Shown: piece by piece, positions 26,716-52,905 of the stretch | Layout: every line of letters begins with the position of its first letter | How positions within the stretch are numbered: the stretch's first letter is position 1 | NCBI GenBank assembly: GCA_023100825.1 | Contig: CP095846.1 | Span: 4,216,001-4,280,000, forward strand | DNA length: 64,000 bases | Source: Nocardioidaceae bacterium SCSIO 66511 | GTDB taxonomy: Bacteria > Actinomycetota > Actinomycetes > Propionibacteriales > Nocardioidaceae | Direction: 5' to 3' | Made by a program: the position numbers and the translations under genes | Notes under the pieces: generated by a model | Told to the model about the DNA's origin: nothing | Database searches by the model: none | Seen by the model: only the letters and a program-made list of their open reading frames with translations

Positions 26716-28897
<2,182 letters not shown>

Positions 28898-28898
<1 letters not shown>

Positions 28899-30793
28899 CA
28901 CGCCACCTCCAGCAGGTCGAGCAGCTCGGTCATCACGTGGACGACGTCGATTCCGGGCGCGAGATAGTCGTCCGGCGAGCCGACGGAGCTGATGAACGAG
29001 CGTTCCGAGCCGACGGCATACACCCGCGCGAGATGCCCAGATCGCAGCGCATCAACGGCATCCGACCCGATGCGCTCGTAGCGACCGTCGCCACCGCAGA
29101 GCACCGCGACCTTCAGGCTCGCCTCGCGTACCGCGGCGGTGAGTGTTTCGGCCTCCTCGGTCAGACCCGACTCGACAACATCGATGCCTGCACTCGCGAG
29201 CAGGTTTCTGGCGTACGTCGCGCGCTGGTTGTGCTCGGCTACGGGGCCGAGCGTCGCGAGGAAGACGCTCGGGCGTACGCCGGTTTCGGCGAGGTGGCGA
29301 TCGGATCGGTCGCGCATGGCCTCGAACGGCTCGGCGTACCTCGCCACCGGGAGCAGACCGCCGTCGGGACTCGGCTTCGGCTCGACGCTCGGCTCGCCGA
29401 GGTTGGGAAACTCGTTCACCCCCGTGACGCTCGTCCGCCGGTGTGCGATGTCGTCGGCGCGGGTCGTACGCGTTGCGTCGAGCCGCTCCGCGATGGCGCC
29501 GGAATCGAGCGCGGCGGCAAATCCACCCGCCCGCTCGATCTCCTGGAACACCTGCCACGCCTGGTCGGCGAGCGACTCGGTCAACTGCTCGACGTACCAG
29601 GAACCCCCGGCGGGATCGATCACGGCGCCGACATGCGACTCCTCCAGCAACAGCAGTTGGGTGTTACGTGCTATGCGTGCGGCGAACCGCTCAGAGGCAC
29701 CGGGGGCACCACCGGCGAGGGCGCTGTCGAACGGTTGCACCGTCACGTCATCCGCACCGCCGACACCGGCCGCGAAGCCGGCGAGCGTTGTGCGCAGCAT
29801 GTTCACCCACGGATCGCGCTGCGCCATCATCGCCTGTGACGTGACGGCGTGTTGGGCCGCAGCACCGGCTTCCGGGGCGTCCAGCACCTGAGCGATGCGT
29901 GCCCACGCCTTGCGGAACGCCCGCAGCTTCGCGATCCCGGCGAACTGGTCGTCGGTGACCGCGTGCCGGAACTCCACTGCTTCGAGAGCCTGCTCGGCAG
30001 TGAGCCCGCCATCGACGAGCGCGCGTACGTACGCGACACCCGCCGCGAGGCTGACGCCCAGCTCCTCTGCGTTACTGGCGCCGGCATCGTGGAAGACGGT
30101 GCCGTCGACCACGAGCGTACGAATGGTTTCGGGGCGGTCCGCCACGCGTACGGCGAGCGCGACCGCGTCGTCGATGCCGGCTCCGTCGACCGTCGTGCCG
30201 TTACGGATGTGCAGCCCGAACGGATCGGCGCCGAACCGCAACCGCACCTGGGAGGGTTCATCGATTGCTGTCCCGTCGACCGCAGCGAGCAGCGCATCGG
30301 ATGCCTCTGCGAATGCAGACCCGGCGTCCAGTCGCACCGGCGCGAGGTCGAACAGTACGCCCTTCAAAGCCGCGGCGAGATCGCTCGGCACGACGCCGAC
30401 GACCCCATCACGGTCGACGGCCAGCCAAACCGAGCTGACGCCGTTGTTCAGATCGTCAAGGAGCAGACGGTTCGTTGCCGCCGCATCGCCGCGCTCGCCA
30501 TATCGTGCGCAGACACCCCAGCCGGCCGCATCGGCACTGACTCCTCGGGTGAAGGGCGCGACGCCGGGAAGGGGAGCCTCCGCGAGCTCGTCGCCCGGCG
30601 TGTACAGCGCAGCGACGGTGACCCCGTCGTACGTCTCCGTGTCGAGCAACCGCTCCGGTTCCGGCCCGAGCTCTGCCGGATCGACCTTGCGACCCTTGGC
30701 GAGCACACCGGCAACGGCTCGCCGCCAGCTTTCGTACGCAGCGGGTTGCTGGGGAGCCGACTGGGGGTTCATGGGGCCGATGTTACGGCTCAT
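28898..30793 (-). CDS. mutA: Methylmalonyl-CoA mutase small (non-catalytic) subunit
   Basis: The 631-residue partner of the mutase heterodimer has the same overall layout: a barrel up to about 480 and a C-terminal flavodoxin-like domain. It lacks the cobalt-ligating DxHxxG motif; the equivalent stretch reads [51 protein letters not shown] is clearly mutase family. The start at 30793 is preceded by AGGGTGA, and ATG 30772 (MNPQSAP) is an alternative. It is the first gene of the mutA-mutB-meaB operon, divergent from the lipase gene. Confidence 0.94.
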
Positions 30794-43257: not shown

Positions 43258-44106
43258 TCACCGAGCGCGGACGGTGCCCCCGCCAGGCGGAGGCGAAAAG
43301 GTCACCTCAGCCGCAAATGACGCCCGCCTCGACGCCCGCCGCAGCACGGCGAGCACCGTGGGTCCGAGCACCAGGATCGCGACTGTGTTGGCGATTGCCC
43401 GGCCGGTGTCCCAGCCGAAGGTAGAGGTGAGCAGTGTGTAGGTGACGAAGCGGTGCAGGTTCTCGAGTACCGGATCACCGGGTACGTACGACACGCCACC
43501 GTCGGCGCCGGGCACATCGATGCCGATCGCGAACGGCCAGAACCACAGGTTCATCAGGAAGCCGAAGGCGTACGCGACCACGATCCCGTACGCCACCAGC
43601 ATCGCGATCTCCCATTTGCCGGTGACGCGGCGCGGCAACAGACCGGCGCCCATGCCGATCCACGCGGAGCACATCATCTGGAACGGCAGCCAGGGTCCGA
43701 CACCGCCGGTGAGCAGCGCCGAGGCGAACATCGAGGCGCAGCCGAGTACGAAACCGAAACCGGCGCCGTACACGCGTCCGGCCAGCACCAGCAGGAAGAA
43801 GACGGTTTCTATGCCGGCTACTCCGGCGCCGAGGGGACGGAGAGCGGCGTCGACCGCGGCCAGTACGCCGAGGATGGCTAGGGCCTTGGAGTCCATGCCA
43901 CCCTCGGACAGCTCGACGAGCACAACGACGATCACGACCGGCAGAATCGCGATGAAGACGAATGGTGCGTCTACGCTGTGCTGCGCACTGTCCGGTCCGA
44001 CGCGTAACAGCAGCGGCCAGAGGAACATCGTCAAGCCCGCGAGCGATGCCGCGGTCAGGGTGATCGCCGAACGCGGACCGATCCGAACGACCCGAGTGTC
44101 AGCCAT
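43258..44106 (-). CDS. ECF transporter S component, probably for cobalamin
   Basis: This 282-residue membrane protein has about seven helices, among them LTAASLAGLTMFLWPLLL, FIAILPVVIVVVLV, FGFVLGCASMFASALLTGG and IAMLVAYGIVVAYAFGFLMNL. GMGAGLLPRR and the helix-3-like FGFVLG segment fit ECF substrate-specific subunits. ATG 44106 has GGAG 6 nt upstream and sits within the last bases of the ATPase gene; an upstream ATG 44136 is also in frame. S components bind the vitamin and dock to the T-A-A' module. The B12 riboswitch at the head of the operon makes cobalamin or a precursor the likely substrate. It is the last gene of the operon and longer than typical S proteins (about 180-200). Confidence 0.82.
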   Translation of the reverse strand: MADTRVVRIGPRSAITLTAASLAGLTMFLWPLLLRVGPDSAQHSVDAPFVFIAILPVVIVVVLVELSEGGMDSKALAILGVLAAVDAALRPLGAGVAGIETVFFLLVLAGRVYGAGFGFVLGCASMFASALLTGGVGPWLPFQMMCSAWIGMGAGLLPRRVTGKWEIAMLVAYGIVVAYAFGFLMNLWFWPFAIGIDVPGADGGVSYVPGDPVLENLHRFVTYTLLTSTFGWDTGRAIANTVAILVLGPTVLAVLRRASRRASFAAEVTFSPPPGGGTVRAR

Positions 44107-45718
44107 CGCGATCTCCGACCGCCGCAGCAACGTCATCCACTGTCAACCACTGGGGTCCGAGCACCTTCGACACCTGCGGCGCGAACGCCGGTGAAGCCGC
44201 CAGCACGTCCACGGCCGGGCCGTCCGAAACGACCTCCCCCTCGGCCATCACGATCGCGCGATCGGCCACCGTTGCAACGAACTCGACGTCGTGCGTCGCC
44301 ACGACAACGGAGCGGCCGTCGGCAGCGAGCGAGCGGATGACCGCAGCGAACGCGTCCTTGGCGGCGTAGTCGAGGCCGCGCGTCGGCTCGTCGAGGAGCA
44401 GTACGTCGGGGGCAGCCGTCAGCTGGATTGCGAGCACGAGCGCGAGGCGTTGACCCTCCGAAAGATCCCGCGGATGTGTCTCCGGCGCAATGCCCGGCGA
44501 GAGTCGATCGAGCAGCGCTCGGCAGGTGCCGGACGCGGCGCCGGACTCCCGGTCCCCCGTGGCACATTCCTCGGCGACGGACTCGAGATACAGCAGGTCG
44601 GTCGCGGTCTGCGGTACGAGCCCGACGAGCCTTCGCGCAGCCGCGCTCGACATGCGCGACGGGTCATGCGGACCGTCGTTCGTCTCGACCGCGACCGAGC
44701 CCCCGTCTCGCGGCCCCGAACCTTGCAGCGCCCAGAGCAAGGACGACTTGCCAGATCCATTCCGGCCCATCAGCGCGGTCACCTCACCCGCATGCAGGTC
44801 GAGGTCGGCTCCGCGGACGGCGATCTTCGAGCCGTATCGCACGACAACGTCCTTGCCACGTAGCCGTGCCTCGGTCGGCGTCGGGCGACTGACGTGTCCG
44901 GCGTGGTCACTCAGGTCGTCGCGCAGACTGCGCGCTGCCCGCCGCGCATCGCGTACCGACAACGGCAACGGACTCCAACCTGCAAGCCGCCCGAGGCGTA
45001 CGACGGGCGGAGCGACCGGAATGTCCAGCAACAGCGCACGGGGATCGTCACACACGACCGTGCCGTCTCCAGCAACGTAAGCGAGCCGGTCGGCAAACGG
45101 CACCACCCGCTCCATGCGGTGTTCGGCCAGTACGACGGTCGTGCCCAGGTCGTGCACCAGACGCGCCAGTGTTGCGAGCACCTCCTCGGCCGCGGTCGGG
45201 TCGAGCGCGGACGTCGGCTCGTCGAGCACCAGCACCTTCGGATGCGGAGTCAGCACCGACCCGATAGCCACGCGCTGTTGCTGGCCGCCTGAAAGGGTAC
45301 GAAGCGCACGCCGCCTCAAACCCGCGATCCCCAGCAGGTCAAGGGTTTCCTCGACTCGACGCCGCATCACCTGCGGCTCGACGCCGAGCTGCTCCATACC
45401 GTAGGCGAGCTCCTCCTCGACTGTGTCCGTCACGAAGCCCGCGAGCGGATCCTGACCGACGAAGCCGACCAGGTGCGCGAGCTCGCGCGGCGGCCGCTCC
45501 TGCGTCGTCTCACCCGCTACGGTCACTCGGCCAGCGAGCCGACCGCCGGTGAAGTGCGGGACGAGCCCGTTCAAGGTGCCCAGCAAGGTCGACTTGCCTG
45601 CACCGGTGCGCCCAACCACGAGTACCAGCTCGGCTTCGTCGATCCGCAAGTCGACATCTCGAAGCGATGGCTCGAGTGCACCGTCGTACGTGAACGTCAC
45701 CTGGTCGAGAGTGATCAC
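44099..45718 (-). CDS. ECF transporter fused double ATPase (EcfA-EcfA')
   Basis: The 539-residue protein consists of two ABC ATPase domains. The first has Walker A GRTGAGKSTLL (about 36-46), signature LSGGQQQRVAIG and Walker B VLVLDEPTSALD. The second has Walker A GRNGSGKSSLL, a modified signature LSEGQRLALVLA, Walker B VLLLDEPTRGLD and switch His in ATHDVEF. Fused A-A' subunits are common in actinobacterial ECF importers. It powers the T and S subunits encoded on either side. It overlaps the EcfT gene by 4 nt (ATGA) and the S gene by 8 nt. Confidence 0.93.
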   Translation of the reverse strand: MITLDQVTFTYDGALEPSLRDVDLRIDEAELVLVVGRTGAGKSTLLGTLNGLVPHFTGGRLAGRVTVAGETTQERPPRELAHLVGFVGQDPLAGFVTDTVEEELAYGMEQLGVEPQVMRRRVEETLDLLGIAGLRRRALRTLSGGQQQRVAIGSVLTPHPKVLVLDEPTSALDPTAAEEVLATLARLVHDLGTTVVLAEHRMERVVPFADRLAYVAGDGTVVCDDPRALLLDIPVAPPVVRLGRLAGWSPLPLSVRDARRAARSLRDDLSDHAGHVSRPTPTEARLRGKDVVVRYGSKIAVRGADLDLHAGEVTALMGRNGSGKSSLLWALQGSGPRDGGSVAVETNDGPHDPSRMSSAAARRLVGLVPQTATDLLYLESVAEECATGDRESGAASGTCRALLDRLSPGIAPETHPRDLSEGQRLALVLAIQLTAAPDVLLLDEPTRGLDYAAKDAFAAVIRSLAADGRSVVVATHDVEFVATVADRAIVMAEGEVVSDGPAVDVLAASPAFAPQVSKVLGPQWLTVDDVAAAVGDRDG

Positions 45719-46845
45719 GCGGTCACCCGTTCGGTCGCTCGCAGCGTCGACGTCTCGTCGGCGTCGTCATACGGTGACTCAGGAGCCGGAGTGAGCCAGG
45801 CGGGCAGCATGCCGATCAACACCACGCACAGCGGCGCCCAGCTCAACGCCGGCCAACCACCGGTGACTACGCTCATGCCGACCGGGTCGTACGTCGCAGT
45901 GGCCCAGAACCCAACTACCACGGCGATTCCGGAACCAGCGGTCACGAGCTCAGCCGTACGCCAGCGGTCGGGTCGATAGCGCGTACGACGAGCCGTACGG
46001 CCGGCAAGCGCGATGCCGCCGAACGCGAGCAGGCACCCCGCCGCAAGCGCACCGAATGCGACGCCTCTGGTCATCGTGAGGTCCTGCGAGGCGTACGCAC
46101 CTACGCAGATGCCGGAAAGGCCGCCGATCAAGAGACTCCCGCTCGCGAGACGCTGCCGGCGGCCGGCTGCTCCGGTACGCCCGTAGCCGCGCGCATCCAT
46201 CGCGGCAGCCAGCCGAAGCGAGCGGTCGAGTGCGTCTTCGAGTACGGGCACGGCGACCGTGCGTACGAGATCGAGCCGTCGGGAGTCTCGGCCGCGAAGC
46301 TTGCGCGCCCGGCGTACCCGCAGGACGCTCTCGGCGAGCTGCGGAAACACCGATAACGCAACGACGACAGCGGTACCGACCTCGTACAACGCCGGAGGCA
46401 TTGCCTTCAACAACCTCTTCGGGTTGGCGAGGGCGTTGGCCGCGCCGAGACAGATGATCATCGTCGCAAGACGGAGACCGTCGTACAGGGCGCCGAGAAC
46501 TGACTCCAGCGAGACGTCTCCGAGCAGCTGGACTCCGGCGGCCCAGTCGGGCAATGGGATCTCGGGCAAGCCGAGCACGAGCGTATCGCCTCCGCCACCG
46601 CCGAACAGGATCCGAAAGACCACCCGGAGCACGACGACGAACAGGCCAAGATAGAGGTACATCCGAAAGGCAAGTGCCCAAGGCGCCTCCGATCTACGGG
46701 CGACCACCACGTACGACGCAACCGCGATGATCGTCAGCAGCAGCCAGGGGTTGATGGTTCGACTCGCCGCGACGGCAAGGCCGATCGCCCAGATCCACCA
46801 GGCGCCGGGATGCAGATCACGAGGTACGAAGTACGCGGCGGTCAT
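45715..46845 (-). CDS. ECF transporter T component (EcfT/CbiQ family)
   Basis: This 376-residue integral membrane protein couples the ATPases to the S subunit. It has several helices, such as IGLAVAASRTINPWLLLTIIAV and YLGLFVVVLRVVFRILF, and the cytoplasmic coupling helices with the Ala-Arg-Gly signature, LAAAMDARGYGRTG (about 216-229), preceded by RRARKLRGRDSRRLD. It carries extra helices at the C-terminus compared with the usual about 260-residue EcfT. It lies between the exported-protein genes and the double ATPase in the cobalamin operon, with only 1 nt between its start and the upstream stop. Confidence 0.9.
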   Translation of the reverse strand: MTAAYFVPRDLHPGAWWIWAIGLAVAASRTINPWLLLTIIAVASYVVVARRSEAPWALAFRMYLYLGLFVVVLRVVFRILFGGGGGDTLVLGLPEIPLPDWAAGVQLLGDVSLESVLGALYDGLRLATMIICLGAANALANPKRLLKAMPPALYEVGTAVVVALSVFPQLAESVLRVRRARKLRGRDSRRLDLVRTVAVPVLEDALDRSLRLAAAMDARGYGRTGAAGRRQRLASGSLLIGGLSGICVGAYASQDLTMTRGVAFGALAAGCLLAFGGIALAGRTARRTRYRPDRWRTAELVTAGSGIAVVVGFWATATYDPVGMSVVTGGWPALSWAPLCVVLIGMLPAWLTPAPESPYDDADETSTLRATERVTA

Positions 46846-46846
46846 C

Positions 46847-47746
46847 TCACCTCAACCGTTGCGATGCGCGCCGGCGTACCACCGTAACGGCAATGAGTAC
46901 GCCGATCCCGGCGATCACACCGGCAGCTGCCCACGGTGCGGCCGATGAGGACTCGGGGTCGACGTCCGCACTAGCGGCTGACTCGGTGTCTTCGCCACCC
47001 GTCCACTTGACACCGTCTTGCGCCCCCTCCGTCGGAGCGGAACCGACGTCGCGCTTCTTCGGCATCGGCAGCCCGGCACCGGAATCGCCGGTGGAGTCGG
47101 TGGAGTCGTCGGATGCCCCGCCGTCGGTCTGCCCGTCATCGCTCTTCGAGCCCTGGTCCGATTCGTCGGTCGTCGCGCCCTCGGAGCTCTCAGCCCCGTC
47201 GGAGTCGCCAGTGTCGTCGTCGGGGCGCACCGGATCGATGCGTGGCGCCGACGGCGAGGAGCGCGTCTCGTTCAACGCGAACGACCAGCCCTCGAACCCG
47301 CCGACGATCGCCTCGCGGTTCTGCAGCCCGCGCTGGCTGTACGCCCAATCGCCGCCGTTCTCGGCGCCCCAGTAGCTCCAGTACGCCGACGAGGGCGGCA
47401 TGTCGACACACGCCTCGCGGTATCCGTCGTCGCCGTCGACCGCGAGGGACTCGCCCGCGCCGGGGCGACCTTCGATGCGACACACGGCGCCGGCGCCGAA
47501 CCGGCTCGTGCCGTCGACAAGGAATCCGGCATCGCGCAGTGCGTCCAGCCCATCGCGCTGCTGGGAGCCAGGAGCGCATCGGACGACCACGTCGCCGCCG
47601 ATCGAGCCGAAGTCGACGACGACAGTGACACCGTCGCCGTCAGGGCAGAATCCGGGTGTCCCTTTGGAGTCGTCGATCGCCGACGCCGGCGCAGCACCGG
47701 CCACCACCGCTGCGACGGCGACGAGGAACATCGCCAGTCTTCTCAT
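46847..47746 (-). CDS. Membrane-anchored exported protein with four-Cys intrinsic-factor-like beta domain
   Basis: The protein is 299 residues from ATG 47746, which overlaps the upstream TGA (ATGA). Signal peptide about 1-25 (ending PASA). A compact domain (about 30-155) matches the C-terminus of the 631-residue protein of the same operon: GVTVVVDFG, VVRCAPG, GLDALRDAGF, CRIEGRPG, the Pro-Pro-Ser...YWSYW block and GGFEGWSFALN. All four cysteines are in register. An acidic Ser/Asp/Glu linker (about 160-255) and one helix (about 268-289) with a basic tail anchor it outside the membrane. The domain recalls DUF4430 and the beta domain of intrinsic factor. I infer a cobalamin-capturing half-site near the ECF transporter. 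The identity is not proven. Confidence 0.72.
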   Translation of the reverse strand: MRRLAMFLVAVAAVVAGAAPASAIDDSKGTPGFCPDGDGVTVVVDFGSIGGDVVVRCAPGSQQRDGLDALRDAGFLVDGTSRFGAGAVCRIEGRPGAGESLAVDGDDGYREACVDMPPSSAYWSYWGAENGGDWAYSQRGLQNREAIVGGFEGWSFALNETRSSPSAPRIDPVRPDDDTGDSDGAESSEGATTDESDQGSKSDDGQTDGGASDDSTDSTGDSGAGLPMPKKRDVGSAPTEGAQDGVKWTGGEDTESAASADVDPESSSAAPWAAAGVIAGIGVLIAVTVVRRRASQRLR

Positions 47747-50250
47747 GAGCGATCTCCCCTGGGGCTTTGTACGATCCGCTGCGCGAGTACGACCGCCGCC
47801 AGCAACAAGACAACTGCGAGCAGCCCGGCAAGCGCGTACACCATCCAACCGGGAAGCAGCGGGTCATCGGCCGCGTCGGATGAAGGCGCGGCCTGCTCGG
47901 TGGAATCAACGCCGACGGGTACGCGCACTGCAGGTGTGAGGGCGGACCCCTTCGCGCTCAGCAGTGAGCGACCGGCGACCGCCGGAGCAGCGCCGATGCT
48001 TGCCTCGACCTCACTCGGAGCTCGATCGGCGGCCTTCGTACCCGACGGACCGGCAACTCCGCCGTCGTTGCGCAAGAGCTGCCCCATACGATCCGCGAGG
48101 TAGGTCGCGTCGAGCCCGAGAGCCTGCTTTCCGGCGGCGACGGCCGCGAGCGTCGACCACTGCTGGTTGCCGGTCGAAGCCGGTCGTACGTCGGGCACCG
48201 ACCCGTAGTCGTACAGGTACGACGCGGCGCGTACGAGGGGATCAGAACCGTCGGGCGCGTGTGCCTCTGTCGCGCTGGCCGGCGCGTATGCCGCACTGGC
48301 GCTTTCGCGAGTCGCGTTGAGCGCCTGCACCGCCATCGCGGTCGACGCCACCTCGCCCGCTGCACAGTCGGTCTGGGTCAAGTCGGTTCCGAACGCACCG
48401 TCGTCGCATTGCACTTCCCGGATCGGCTCCAACGCCGCGTCGCTGTCTGCGTCGCGCCCGGCTGCACGAAGCGCAAGCGCCGACCACGATTGGCGTTCGG
48501 TCGACCTGCCCACATCGGCTTGCTCGCCGGTGTCGTCGAACCCGCCGTCGTCGTTCTGCAGCCGTGCCAACTCGTCGGCGTACGAGCTCGTCGCCCTCGT
48601 CGCTCGCTTGGTCGGCAGCCAGCCGGCGATCAGCGACAGCTTTGCGAGTGGTTCGGCATACGCGGCACCCTTGCTCTCATACGGTTTGCCGTATGCGTAC
48701 GCGTCGACGGACTCGGTAGACAGCAGGAACTCGGACGCGCTCCGGGCAGCATCGGGTCGCTCTCCGAGGACGCGCAGGGCGAGCACCGCGTCGGCGGTCA
48801 GGTCGTAGTCGACGTACAGCTTCCCTCGGTCGCGTACCTCGATATGCGTACCGTCGACGAGTTGGTCGGCGATGAAGGACGCGAGTCGTGCCGTCGGGCG
48901 GGTTGGTTGCGTCGGCTTTTGCTGCTCACCGCCGGGCTCATCGGCGTCGTCCTCAGACTCACGGTCCGGCTCATCGGTCGGTTCGTCGTCGGGCGGATCC
49001 GTGGTCGAGTCGTCCTCCGGCGGGCCGGTCTGCTGGTCATCGTCGGGCGGCTCGGTCTCGTCGTTGCCGTCGTCATTGCCGTCGTCGGTCGGGCCAGACG
49101 CGTTCAGCACCCGCGGATCCCCCTTCGGCGGGGTGTCGCCGAGCGTCGCGAACGACACCGGAGAGAACGCGAAGACCGCTTGCACGGTGCTCCGGCGCCA
49201 CTCGTCTCGCCCATTGTCGTCGATGCCCGACCTACGTGCCTTCGCGAGCGAGGCCGGGTCATACGCGATGGCGCCGACCTCCTTGCTCACTTGAGTTCTC
49301 GCCGCGCGTACGGGTGACACCTGGCGCTCGGCAACCCAGTCTCGCGCCCGTTCGTACGCACCCGTGGCGCCCGTCGCGTGCAGGCTCTGTGCAGCGAGCC
49401 CAGTGGAGTTGGCATTGGGCGGCTCGCTGGTGCCGACTCCCCCGAACGACCCGTCCGGGCGTTGCACCCGGCGTAGCCAGCCGCTCGCCCTCGCGATCGC
49501 GCCGTCGAGGCCGTCCGTGCCATTGGCGCGCGCGGTGAGCATCGCCTGAACAGCAATCGCCGTGCCGTCGATGTCCGGCACACCGCGTGCGGCATTGCAC
49601 GATTTGCCGTCGTTGTAGGTCATCCGGAAGTACCCGGCTGCGCACTGTTGACTGCGAAGGAACGTCAACGCTGCTTCGTGATCACCACCCGACCGCGCCA
49701 GCCCGATGACGGCGAGCGACTGCCCGAACAGATTGGTGCTGTCTCGCCCGGTGCCACGGTCGCGGAGTCGACCCGGTTGCTTCGAGCCCGACGGCGCCAC
49801 CAGGTCGAGCACTTCCTGGCGCATGTCGTACGTACCTCGGCCGGTATAGCGACCACGACCGAACGCGTGCGGGTCGCTCCCGGTGACGACGGCGACGTTG
49901 AGCAGAGCCGCCGCCGAACCCGCGATACGCGCCCGCTTGTCTCGATAGAGGTCCGGGCCGAGGAACTCACCGGCGTGTGCAGCCAGTGACCCGGTCATTC
50001 GCTTGGCTGCCGTCTCACCTACTCCGCTGGCGTACAGCGCGAACAAGGCGGACGCCGTGAGCCCCCAGTCATAGCGCGTCGCCGGGCCAGGTAGCGAACC
50101 GTCGACGGCCTCGCGAGCGATCCACGCACCGGTGGTCTCTGCGCGATTGAGCTCCGCCGGTGCCGTACGCGCAACTGAGGGCACCTGGCCGGGGACCAGC
50201 AGGGCCCCGACCAGACCCGCAATAGTCGCAGCGATCAACGGCCTTCGCAT
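47743..50250 (-). CDS. Membrane-anchored exported protein with two alpha/alpha-barrel (terpenoid-cyclase-like / intrinsic-factor alpha) domains
   Basis: The protein is 835 residues from ATG 50250 with GAGG 7 nt upstream. Signal peptide about 1-28. Barrel region 1 is about 35-375, an acidic Pro/Asp/Glu linker about 380-445, barrel region 2 about 445-720, and one C-terminal helix (about 803-826) with a basic tail. Both barrels carry the repeat QCxxGxF...C followed by TAxAVQA (QQCAAGYFR with TAIAVQAM; VQCDDGAFG with TAMAVQAL), suggesting a disulfide in each. Repeated helical hairpins of this kind form the alpha6/alpha6 barrel of prenyltransferases, cyclases and cobalamin-binding intrinsic factor. 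No DxDD catalytic motif was seen. A binding rather than enzymatic role on the surface is inferred. Confidence 0.75.
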   Translation of the reverse strand: MRRPLIAATIAGLVGALLVPGQVPSVARTAPAELNRAETTGAWIAREAVDGSLPGPATRYDWGLTASALFALYASGVGETAAKRMTGSLAAHAGEFLGPDLYRDKRARIAGSAAALLNVAVVTGSDPHAFGRGRYTGRGTYDMRQEVLDLVAPSGSKQPGRLRDRGTGRDSTNLFGQSLAVIGLARSGGDHEAALTFLRSQQCAAGYFRMTYNDGKSCNAARGVPDIDGTAIAVQAMLTARANGTDGLDGAIARASGWLRRVQRPDGSFGGVGTSEPPNANSTGLAAQSLHATGATGAYERARDWVAERQVSPVRAARTQVSKEVGAIAYDPASLAKARRSGIDDNGRDEWRRSTVQAVFAFSPVSFATLGDTPPKGDPRVLNASGPTDDGNDDGNDETEPPDDDQQTGPPEDDSTTDPPDDEPTDEPDRESEDDADEPGGEQQKPTQPTRPTARLASFIADQLVDGTHIEVRDRGKLYVDYDLTADAVLALRVLGERPDAARSASEFLLSTESVDAYAYGKPYESKGAAYAEPLAKLSLIAGWLPTKRATRATSSYADELARLQNDDGGFDDTGEQADVGRSTERQSWSALALRAAGRDADSDAALEPIREVQCDDGAFGTDLTQTDCAAGEVASTAMAVQALNATRESASAAYAPASATEAHAPDGSDPLVRAASYLYDYGSVPDVRPASTGNQQWSTLAAVAAGKQALGLDATYLADRMGQLLRNDGGVAGPSGTKAADRAPSEVEASIGAAPAVAGRSLLSAKGSALTPAVRVPVGVDSTEQAAPSSDAADDPLLPGWMVYALAGLLAVVLLLAAVVLAQRIVQSPRGDRS

Positions 50251-50279
50251 CGACGTACCTCGATCCTTGCTCTGGCGAA

Positions 50280-52175
50280 TCAGCGGCGCGGCTTGACCCG
50301 CGGCTTGGGCAGATCGGCGCGTTTGGCATTCAACGCGAACGCCCATCCTTCGAACCCGCCGGGCGTCGCGTATCGACTCGCCGGGCCGGACTTCGCGAAG
50401 CGCCAGCCTCCGCGTTTGCCGGTCGCGTGCCAGGATGCCCAGAACGCGTTGCTCGGCGGTGTGGTGACGCACTTCTCGTGGTACTTCGGACTGCCCTTGA
50501 CCGGCAGCTTCTCGGCTCGCGCGGGCCGCCCGTCGAGGCGACACACGAAGGCTTTGCCCTGCATCCGGGTGCCCTTGACCGAGATGCCCGCCTGCTTGAG
50601 CACCTGCAAGCCGGTGCGCTTCTTCACCTTGCCGGTCTTCGTGAACTTCGCGGGCGCACAACGAACGATGGTCTTGCCCTTGTGCTTGCGGAACTTCCCG
50701 AGCTTGCGGAAGTCGACAACCGCGGTGACCCCCTTGCGGCCCTTACGCGTCTTGCGCTTGCACTTGCCTGCGTAACCCTTACGGGCAGCGCCCGGCCGCA
50801 CGCGCGACAGTCCGGTCGACGACGTACGCGGACGCACTCGGATGCGCGCCTTGCCGGATCGCGCGGCGACGGCCCCGCGTACTGCCACCACCCGCTTGCC
50901 CGGCCTCGTCGCCAGCGGCACTCGCACGCGAACGCTGACCTTGCCCTTCGCATTCGCCTTGCCGTACCTGCGCACCTTGCCCGCGACCGCGATGTCGTAA
51001 CGCTCCCCCGGGACAAGCCCCGCGGCACGGACCAGCACCTTGGCACCCACGCGTACGCGATGTCGCGCTGGCCGCACGGCGAATCTCTTCGTCTGGAGCT
51101 CGGTCAGGCCGAGTGTCGCCTGGGCAGTGGCCCGACGCCATTGGTCACGCGACTTCTTGGTGATTCCTGTCTTCTTGCCCGACCGCAGCGCCGCATCGTC
51201 GAACGCGACCGCGCCGACGTCCTTCACCAGGCCCGTCGAACCGGCGCGGCGCTTGGTCGCCTGCCGGGACGCGATCCAGACCGCTGCTCGCCGGGCAGCC
51301 CGCGGATGCCCCGTACGTGCGAGGGCATGGGCTGCGAGCCCTGTGCTGTTCGTATTCGCCGTCGCCGGCTGACCGCTGCGGAATGCTCCGTTGCGCAGCT
51401 GCTTGGTACGTAGCCAACGCGTCGCCGAGGCAATTGGCTTCGCGAGTCCGCCGACGCCGTCGGCGCGTGCCGACTGCATCGCGGCAACGGTGATGGCGGT
51501 CGCGTCGAGGTCCGGCGTACGGTTCGCGGGCTTCGCCGTGCCGCAACGCAGCTTCGGGTTGGAGGCTGCGTCGTTGTACGCAATGCGGAAGAACCCGCGG
51601 GGACACTGCTGTTTGAGCAGGAACTTCTTGACTGACGGCCTCGGCGCCTTGGCTGCCGCGAACCCGCGAAGGGCGTACGCCTGCCCGATCAGGTTCGAGA
51701 AGTCACTGCTGCCGCTGTCCTTGAGCCGGCCCTTGTCCGGTCCGTCAGCGTCTACGAGGGAGGTCGCCCGCTTGACCAGATTGACTCCGCCGAAGGCCCG
51801 CGGCGTCGCATCGACCGTCGTCGCCGCGGTCAGGAGCTTCGCGACCGAGCCCGCGTACGTACCGCCGGACCCGTCACCGATGTAGGCCTCGACGTTGCGT
51901 CGCAGCGCGCGTACGACGGCCTTGCGCTTAGCGGGCTTGACGCGAGCCTCGTCCAGTGCGAGTAGCGAGTCGATCGTCAGACCGTAGTCATCGAACCCGA
52001 ACTGGTCGTTGTGAATGACGCCGCGGGTCAGCTCACCGGCCTGCCAACGGGCGGCGTCCTTGGCCGGACGCGGGGCATCTCTTGCGACGGCCGACGGCGC
52101 GAGCGCCGTACCGGCCAGGCCGAACGCGGTTGCAACGGCGAGCGCACAGCCTCGCCGCCTGATGGATCGGTTCAT
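50280..52175 (-). CDS. Secreted intrinsic-factor-like protein (alpha/alpha barrel plus four-Cys beta domain)
   Basis: The protein is 631 residues from ATG 52175, with GGAGAGGA 4 nt upstream; the longer frame enters the riboswitch. Signal peptide about 1-31. An alpha/alpha-barrel region (about 40-345) carries the shared motif KQQCPRGFFRIAYND...C...DATAIT. A basic Ig-like strand-rich part (about 350-445) follows, then the C-terminal domain (about 470-620) with GVTAVVDF, VRCAPA, CRLDGRP, PPSNAFWASW and GGFEGWAFALN. The four cysteines match those of the 299-residue protein. The order alpha barrel then beta domain is that of intrinsic factor and transcobalamin. There is no C-terminal anchor, so it may be soluble or held by its very basic (Lys/Arg-rich) surface. 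First gene of the riboswitch operon. Confidence 0.75.
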   Translation of the reverse strand: MNRSIRRRGCALAVATAFGLAGTALAPSAVARDAPRPAKDAARWQAGELTRGVIHNDQFGFDDYGLTIDSLLALDEARVKPAKRKAVVRALRRNVEAYIGDGSGGTYAGSVAKLLTAATTVDATPRAFGGVNLVKRATSLVDADGPDKGRLKDSGSSDFSNLIGQAYALRGFAAAKAPRPSVKKFLLKQQCPRGFFRIAYNDAASNPKLRCGTAKPANRTPDLDATAITVAAMQSARADGVGGLAKPIASATRWLRTKQLRNGAFRSGQPATANTNSTGLAAHALARTGHPRAARRAAVWIASRQATKRRAGSTGLVKDVGAVAFDDAALRSGKKTGITKKSRDQWRRATAQATLGLTELQTKRFAVRPARHRVRVGAKVLVRAAGLVPGERYDIAVAGKVRRYGKANAKGKVSVRVRVPLATRPGKRVVAVRGAVAARSGKARIRVRPRTSSTGLSRVRPGAARKGYAGKCKRKTRKGRKGVTAVVDFRKLGKFRKHKGKTIVRCAPAKFTKTGKVKKRTGLQVLKQAGISVKGTRMQGKAFVCRLDGRPARAEKLPVKGSPKYHEKCVTTPPSNAFWASWHATGKRGGWRFAKSGPASRYATPGGFEGWAFALNAKRADLPKPRVKPRR

Positions 52176-52395
52176 GGGGTCCTCTCCGCCGCTCAGGGCG
52201 GAGGACTCGCCGTCGTACGACGAGGGCTCCACCCTGTTCGTCGCGACAGCGTGTCGAGCGGATTCGCACGGTCGAGGTATCCCGGCTCGCCTTTCGGCTC
52301 ACGGTTGCGCGACAGCGCCGGATTTGCACCGGCTTCCCCTGCGGCGTGCGGCGTTCCTCTTGCGGAACCCATCGAATCTAACACGCGCCGCATCC
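52176..52395 (-). promoter_or_regulatory. Cobalamin (B12) riboswitch
   Basis: On the minus strand the conserved B12 box is clear: GGGGAAGCCGGTGCAAATCC (52315-52334), then GGCGCTGTCGCGCAACCGTGAGC, matching the Cbl aptamer consensus GGGAA-CCGGTGAAAATCCGG-CTG-CGCAAC-GTGA. The GAGCCGGGATACC block (52276-52288) matches the GCCAGGAGACC element. The aptamer covers about 52225-52395. Between it and the start codon a hairpin (52179-52206) pairs CCTC-CGCC with GGCG-GAGAGG and buries the ribosome site, indicating control of translation. Cobalamin binding should reduce expression of the downstream operon. Confidence 0.93.
52179..52206 (-). promoter_or_regulatory. Ribosome-site-sequestering hairpin of the cobalamin riboswitch
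   Basis: GTCCTCCGCC (minus strand, 52206-52197) pairs with GGCGGAGAGGAC (52190-52179) across a 6-nt loop with a 2-nt bulge. The GGAGAGGA ribosome site lies inside the 3' arm, four bases before ATG 52175. No T-tract follows, so this is not a terminator-type platform. Confidence 0.75.
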
Positions 52396-52484
52396 GCCGG
52401 CGCCCGTTCGGTGGCCGCTCTCACACGGCGCTGACATCGCCGTCGGCGTCACTGTCGGCGTTTCGTACTTCTTCGGCGACTACT

Positions 52485-52905
52485 CGTCTGCCCGATGCTC
52501 GTTCGCTGTCGGCTTTCCCTGCTGCTTCGGCCGGGAAAAGACGCGGCGACGCGCGGCGGCGCCATTCCGGTTCGGTTGCTCGGCGGCTTTCCCGGGACCT
52601 TAATATGGGATCGGGGTAACGTTCGGTTTCGGTGTTACACCCGTACCGGTAGCCACGTACGTACCAACGCGCACGGCAACCTGTCACTTTGCACGGTGTC
52701 CCTGCCATGCAAAGCGGTACTTCACCATGCTTACTTGGTGAACCACCACCACGACCCCGCTAAAGCCGACCGAAACGGGAAAGCCGGCAAGCAATCCGAG
52801 CCACGTAGCTGGCGGCTCCCGCGTCGCCGCGTCTTTTGCCCGGCTGAAGCAGCAGGGAAAGCCGACAGGGAGCCGGAATCGGGCAGACGAGTAGTCGCGC
52901 GAACG
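52485..52905. repeat. Intergenic structured repeat, copy C (complete X-Y-inverted X)
   Basis: This is the fullest copy, lying in the 776-bp gap between the riboswitch and lplA. Left X (about 52485-52630) has the shared 16-mer at 52538-52553. Core Y (about 52652-52750) has hairpins at 52687-52714 (10 bp, one mismatch) and 52721-52742 (7 bp). Right X is inverted (about 52775-52905), with the 16-mer complement at 52820-52835. The two X modules can pair with each other over about 110 bp, enclosing Y. Frames translated from it are not genes. The remainder of the gap (52396-52484 and 52906-52951) shows nothing recognisable beyond a possible -10 near 52375. Confidence 0.82.

Follow-up and report, generated by a model that had tools for sequence, protein, structure and literature searches.

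A riboswitch-headed ECF operon with three exported proteins

On the minus strand of the window, by which we mean the whole 64,000-nucleotide stretch of the Nocardioidaceae bacterium SCSIO 66511 genome that was analysed, a cobalamin riboswitch heads an operon encoding three exported proteins followed by the genes of an ECF transporter (Table 1). EcfT, two ATPase domains and an S-component are all present; the S-component match is weak, backed by the conserved position of its gene, and a search of this protein against PDB sequences, run up to E=5 as a check for kinship with the B12 importer CbrT, returned no match.

Table 1 Parts of the operon and of its encoded proteins, in window coordinates
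Feature	Position	Strand	Evidence
Cobalamin riboswitch, operon head	52266..52349 (Rfam core 52276-52338)	-	RF00174 45.4 bits (gathering threshold 31.5); R1 74.5 bits
First exported protein, 631 aa	50280..52175	-	ORF; model pLDDT 83
Alpha/alpha toroid, first protein, residues about 35-365	51081..52073	-	VIA-align; Foldseek; NCBIfam SCO2321_fam below cut-off
Four-cysteine domain, first protein, residues about 467-631	50283..50777	-	BLASTP to third protein E=4e-37
Second exported protein, 835 aa	47743..50250	-	Pfam Prenyltrans E=1.5e-9
Third exported protein, 299 aa	46847..47746	-	ORF and sequence
Four-cysteine domain, third protein	47267..47647	-	AlphaFold2; VIA-align
EcfT (CbiQ-like) transmembrane component	45715..46845	-	Pfam CbiQ E=2.8e-14
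EcfA-EcfA' fused double ATPase	44099..45718	-	Pfam ABC_tran, two stretches, E=2.9e-48; NCBIfam ECF_ATPase models
ECF S-component, 292 aa	43258..44136	-	Weak Pfam ECF-ribofla_trS E=0.0027; conserved last gene, 73/80 loci

The first exported protein comprises a signal peptide, an alpha/alpha toroid, a beta-rich stretch with a low-confidence linker, and a C-terminal four-cysteine domain, with no anchor seen. A first-pass annotation, made from the sequence without database searches, had placed this domain after a barrel; that order was borne out, the barrel being the toroid and the beta-rich stretch and linker lying between the two. The second protein carries toroid repeats (with 35% identity between its first toroid and the first protein's), an acidic linker and a C-terminal hydrophobic helix, and is without the four-cysteine domain. 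In the third protein the domain does sit on a membrane stalk, as had been described: a signal peptide is followed by the domain, an acidic stalk and one C-terminal hydrophobic helix.

The first protein is extremely basic (pI 11.7), in contrast to the acidic second (4.7) and third (4.1) proteins. Such a basic/acidic contrast between domain copies recurs in two Nocardioidaceae loci (L062 and L078) and is absent in most others. A coupling of soluble and anchored copies through opposite charge would suit this genome, but the other loci do not bear it out (median pI 5.8 versus 7.0), and we do not put it forward as generally valid.

The interval that separates the riboswitch from the upstream gene contains a long imperfect inverted repeat (52476-52553 and 52820-52898), with 64-nt arms that are 89% complementary, plus an adjoining 21 nt, and with a separation of 266-295 nt.

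One four-cysteine domain in two of the exported proteins

The claim from which this work started, that the first and third exported proteins share one domain with collinear sequence blocks, was confirmed by pairwise alignment. The blocks (first/third protein) GVTAVVDF/GVTVVVDF, VRCAP/VRCAP, CRLDGRP/CRIEGRP, PPSNAFW/PPSSAYW and GGFEGWAFALN/GGFEGWSFALN follow one another in identical order, and 69 of 166 residues are identical (42%; BLASTP, 127 bits, E=4e-37). Chance matching does not account for this likeness, as the local alignment scored 306 against a mean of 29.6 for 1000 shuffles (sd 5.1, maximum 66). The cysteines, too, occupy equivalent positions (C472/C34, C506/C57, C545/C89 and C569/C113, with the third protein numbered from the ATG at 47746), and a six-frame search of the 4.6-Mb genome recovered exactly two copies of the domain.

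All four cysteines are present in 175 of 176 aligned copies from this and other genomes; the sole exception, a Nocardioides copy (L079:13733-14149), has lost both Cys3 and Cys4. The near-complete conservation and this joint loss both back the two-disulfide pattern that had been proposed, and the disappearance of Cys3 and Cys4 together, though a single event, suggests that the probable disulfides are Cys1-Cys2 and Cys3-Cys4.

In Pfam the window copy was unmatched, and the model PF14478 (DUF4430) was touched by only one of 24 relatives (E=0.048). Searches of PDB sequences with the domain profile and with the first protein likewise opened no route to a known family. Because the PF14478 sequence cut-off was not reached, the kinship proposed below is one of fold and context, not of Pfam-family membership by sequence.

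Predicted folds resemble the two halves of transcobalamin

An AlphaFold2 model of the third-protein domain, computed from 80 aligned sequences, had high confidence (pLDDT 95.1, pTM 0.90) and backs the common fold previously supposed for both copies. When the model was compared with known structures by VIA-align, the top 15 rows were without exception transcobalamin, intrinsic factor, haptocorrin or the DUF4430 protein 3u7z (Z 8.1-8.9, rmsd 2.9-3.3 over 95-99 residues, 12-14% identity), and the next row after these transcobalamin-type structures stood at Z 5.1. Foldseek alone also ranked transcobalamin first, but with E=0.31, so that the fold assignment rests on the structural alignments, the gap to unrelated folds and the genomic context. 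The predicted fold is thus that of the C-terminal beta-grasp domain of transcobalamin, with extra modelled strands after the helix (E54-57, E61-68, E77-80 and E83-87).

The whole first protein was modelled from a 49-row alignment, larger mixed alignments having misplaced toroid fragments, and in the resulting model the placement of the toroid relative to the domain is undefined. Its toroid aligned with toroid enzymes at Z up to 24.1 (VIA-align; Z 24 for squalene-hopene cyclase), the best matches being squalene-hopene cyclases and glycosidases in a fold that is common to many enzymes. The alpha/alpha toroid is also the fold class of transcobalamin's other half, as described by Burroughs et al. 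2007 (PMC1796856). By Foldseek, the first protein as a whole aligned with transcobalamins and haptocorrin over about 600 columns with both domains covered, at an overall rmsd near 24 that results from the undefined domain placement.

The operon is conserved in actinomycetes

One scan for the domain, seeded with an alignment of closer relatives, retrieved 80 loci from Nocardioides, Amycolatopsis, Micromonospora, Salinispora, Streptomyces, Actinomadura, Kribbella and others, a set which, having been found via the domain itself, is no measure of how often the operon lacks it. EcfT comes after the anchored domain protein in 79 of these loci, with the ATPase in 77 and the S-component in 73, and several loci without ATPase or S-component are on short contigs. 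Two copies of the domain lie on the operon strand in 62 loci and one in the remaining 18. Where there are two, a C-terminal hydrophobic helix was found on the EcfT-proximal copy in 55 loci and on the other copy in 8. The paired function within one operon that the first-pass annotation had proposed is backed by the recurrence of two copies and by the position of the anchored copy before EcfT, and its split into a soluble and an anchored copy by the helix counts. When 296 genomes of the class were sampled separately, the domain profile matched in 122, some of these being half-matches to the permuted family described below.

For the leaders, a covariance model (R1) was built from ten sequences, comprising Rfam-positive members of the same set and the window, and is therefore not independent of the set; with it, 72 of 79 loci proved to have a riboswitch ahead of EcfT, five of the seven others being at contig ends. 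With Rfam alone, 16 loci were scanned, and the operon leader exceeded the threshold in 8 (L062, L063, L078, L090, L092, L101, L130 and L134).

SCO2322 proteins as a circular permutant of the domain

The match of NCBIfam SCO2322 (NF040672) to the window domain was confined to the domain's C-terminal half (profile positions 8-56). The window proteins fell far below the cut-offs of both SCO2321 (NF053823) and SCO2322, scoring 27-29 bits against the 85 bits set for the latter. SCO2322 proteins (L032-L061) open with the C-terminal half of the domain and close with its N-terminal half. In profile-profile comparisons the matching halves aligned at E=1e-13 and 3e-7 (E-values for single comparisons) and the crossed halves gave nothing. 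This order of sequence marks the SCO2322 family as a circularly permuted form of the four-cysteine domain.

The permuted family keeps all four cysteines. In four genomes (L153-L156) its member is encoded in the corresponding position, ahead of EcfT, EcfA and EcfS, and the leader riboswitch detected there with R1 is clear in three and weak in the fourth, with the Rfam gathering threshold unreached. Our literature search found no paper naming SCO2322. A permutant that has kept its cysteines amounts to a small natural experiment on what is essential in the domain.

Cobalamin riboswitches and B12 enzymes in the genome

The genome contains two further cobalamin riboswitches, ahead of MetE and of the class I ribonucleotide reductase alpha subunit (L148 1762-1965 and L149 2542-2751), both of which are B12-independent isozymes; among the three riboswitch-headed gene groups, only the window operon includes a transporter. 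B12-dependent enzymes are represented by MetH, a methylmalonyl-CoA mutase within the window and one further mutase. The corrin-synthesis markers CbiC and CobN, the two tested, were not found in the genome, which on these two markers has the profile of an external B12 need: B12 enzymes present and corrin synthesis absent. The window mutase gene lies at 26718-28901 on the minus strand, about 17 kb from the operon.

A candidate system for B12 capture and import

The evidence points to cobalamin as the ligand of the shared domain. A transcobalamin-like domain fold in a B12-switched transporter operon indicates that B12 is probably bound extracellularly in this bacterium and then delivered to an importer, and capture followed by ECF import is the best reading because the fold model, the toroid partner, the riboswitch, the ECF genes, their conservation and the presence of B12 enzymes without corrin markers all agree with it. 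We consider it likely that the domain, probably stapled by disulfides, is divergently related to the transcobalamin-like SLBB/DUF4430 clade and that the operon is the cell's B12 scavenging system, an assignment that gives these surface proteins a fold whose animal ligand is known.

In the proposed mechanism, low intracellular cobalamin would let the riboswitch permit operon expression; every later step we infer from homology and context. The secreted toroid-plus-domain protein would hold a corrinoid clamped between toroid and domain, in the manner of transcobalamin, and the ligand would then pass to the membrane-anchored toroid protein, the anchored domain protein beside the ECF complex, or both. 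The S-component would take it up, with the EcfT/EcfAA' motor driving import. The exchange of one ligand between soluble and anchored forms, which the first-pass annotation had offered as an example of paired function, is plausible on this analysis. More specifically, and tentatively, we propose a relay in which the secreted toroid-beta protein passes B12 to an anchored, disulfide-stapled beta domain docked on the ECF complex, a domain that would be permuted in Streptomyces and relatives with its four cysteines and its slot kept. Such a relay, if true, would be a bacterial counterpart of the hand-over from transcobalamin to its receptor.

It is also possible, though rather doubtful, that the two copies divide the work without exchanging ligand, one scavenging away from the cell and the other contributing structure or a docking site to the ECF complex. 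The strong difference in charge between the copies here (pI 11.6 versus 4.1) and the 18 of 80 loci with a single copy on the operon strand are compatible with such a division; however, across the loci the copies do not differ in charge as a rule (median pI 5.8 versus 7.0), and the conservation of both copies with all their cysteines argues for one shared binding fold, which would suit relay and division of labour alike.

As to the ligand, we think it unlikely that the operon captures a corrinoid precursor or another cobamide (e.g., cobinamide) and not complete cobalamin. Cobinamide is indeed also accepted by B12 importers of both BtuFCD and CbrT type (PMC6593275), and the riboswitch reports intracellular cobalamin, not the form imported; yet the use of cobinamide would require nucleotide-loop genes, and the markers CbiC and CobN are absent. 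It seems improbable, moreover, that the likeness of the domain is no more than a common beta-grasp arrangement without a shared ligand: beta-grasp folds are indeed common, and a Z near 9 at 12-14% identity does not show function, but the other beta-grasp rows all score far lower than the transcobalamin-type structures, and the toroid partner, the cobalamin riboswitch and the ECF genes independently indicate the same ligand. Finally, it is very improbable that the toroid proteins act as enzymes, akin to class II terpene cyclases or to glycosidases, in an operon serving cobalt or some other substrate, as might be supposed from the toroid's best structural matches and from a CbiQ-like EcfT, a type first known from cobalt uptake, for DxDD is not kept (105 of 112 toroids have DxDxT with a non-acidic fourth residue, and 7 have no such motif), no CbiM-type cobalt S-component was recognised by Pfam, and the absence of corrin-synthesis markers leaves no need of cobalt for B12 synthesis. 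With DxDD missing and the window toroids carrying DLDAT and DIDGT, we discarded a class II cyclase role.

Comparison with known systems

Read as a system for B12 capture and ECF import, the operon resembles animal transcobalamin, intrinsic factor and haptocorrin (5np4, 2bb5, 3kq4 and 4kki) in that the first protein combines a toroid and a predicted beta-grasp domain in one secreted chain. It differs from them in its low identity (12-14%), its cysteine pattern and its long interdomain linker, and in being a bacterial system where a second, anchored copy and an ECF transporter take the place of a cell-surface receptor. The DUF4430 protein RUMGNA_00854 (3u7z) matches the domain in fold (Z 8.6 over 96 residues) and differs at 14% identity. 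CbrT is an established ECF importer of vitamin B12, encoded in L. delbrueckii in the cluster nrdJ-cbrS-cbrT-pduO (PMC5997447); the window operon shares ECF-type import in a B12 context but has its own EcfT and EcfA, as well as toroid and domain proteins. With the SCO2321/SCO2322 families it shares a toroid membrane protein and a four-cysteine protein before EcfT, EcfA and EcfS, although SCO2322 is permuted.

The closest precedent is a prediction: in its available text, Burroughs et al. 2007 (PMC1796856) assigned B12 scavenging to low-GC Gram-positive toroid/SLBB/CbiO/CbiQ operons, whose toroid and SLBB products are secreted and which frequently encode two SLBB paralogues. The window system, likewise composed of a toroid, paired domain proteins and CbiO/CbiQ-type genes, departs from the operons described there in having a four-cysteine domain that lies outside DUF4430 by sequence, in its actinomycete host and in being under a cobalamin riboswitch. 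What appears to be new is the four-cysteine version missed by Pfam, the actinomycete riboswitch operon and the SCO2322 permutant in the same slot; our search found no paper on actinomycete toroid-ECF cobalamin operons, which is weak evidence of novelty given its poor coverage of subscription journals. Genes previously known only by toroid or locus-tag family names would thereby be drawn into one riboswitch-marked, widely conserved candidate B12 system for actinomycetes that do not make B12, and the proposed kinship of animal transcobalamin with Gram-positive surface proteins becomes testable by simple binding assays.

Fusions of toroid and domain in the reverse order, which the same text notes in other bacteria, were found in L062, L065, L078, L131 and L132. 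Beside the operon, on the opposite strand, extra toroid or toroid-plus-domain genes occur in L062, L063, L068, L091, L094 and L095 and also in L108, L127, L129, L139 and L141, many with a riboswitch match of their own, as if surface binders had been added.
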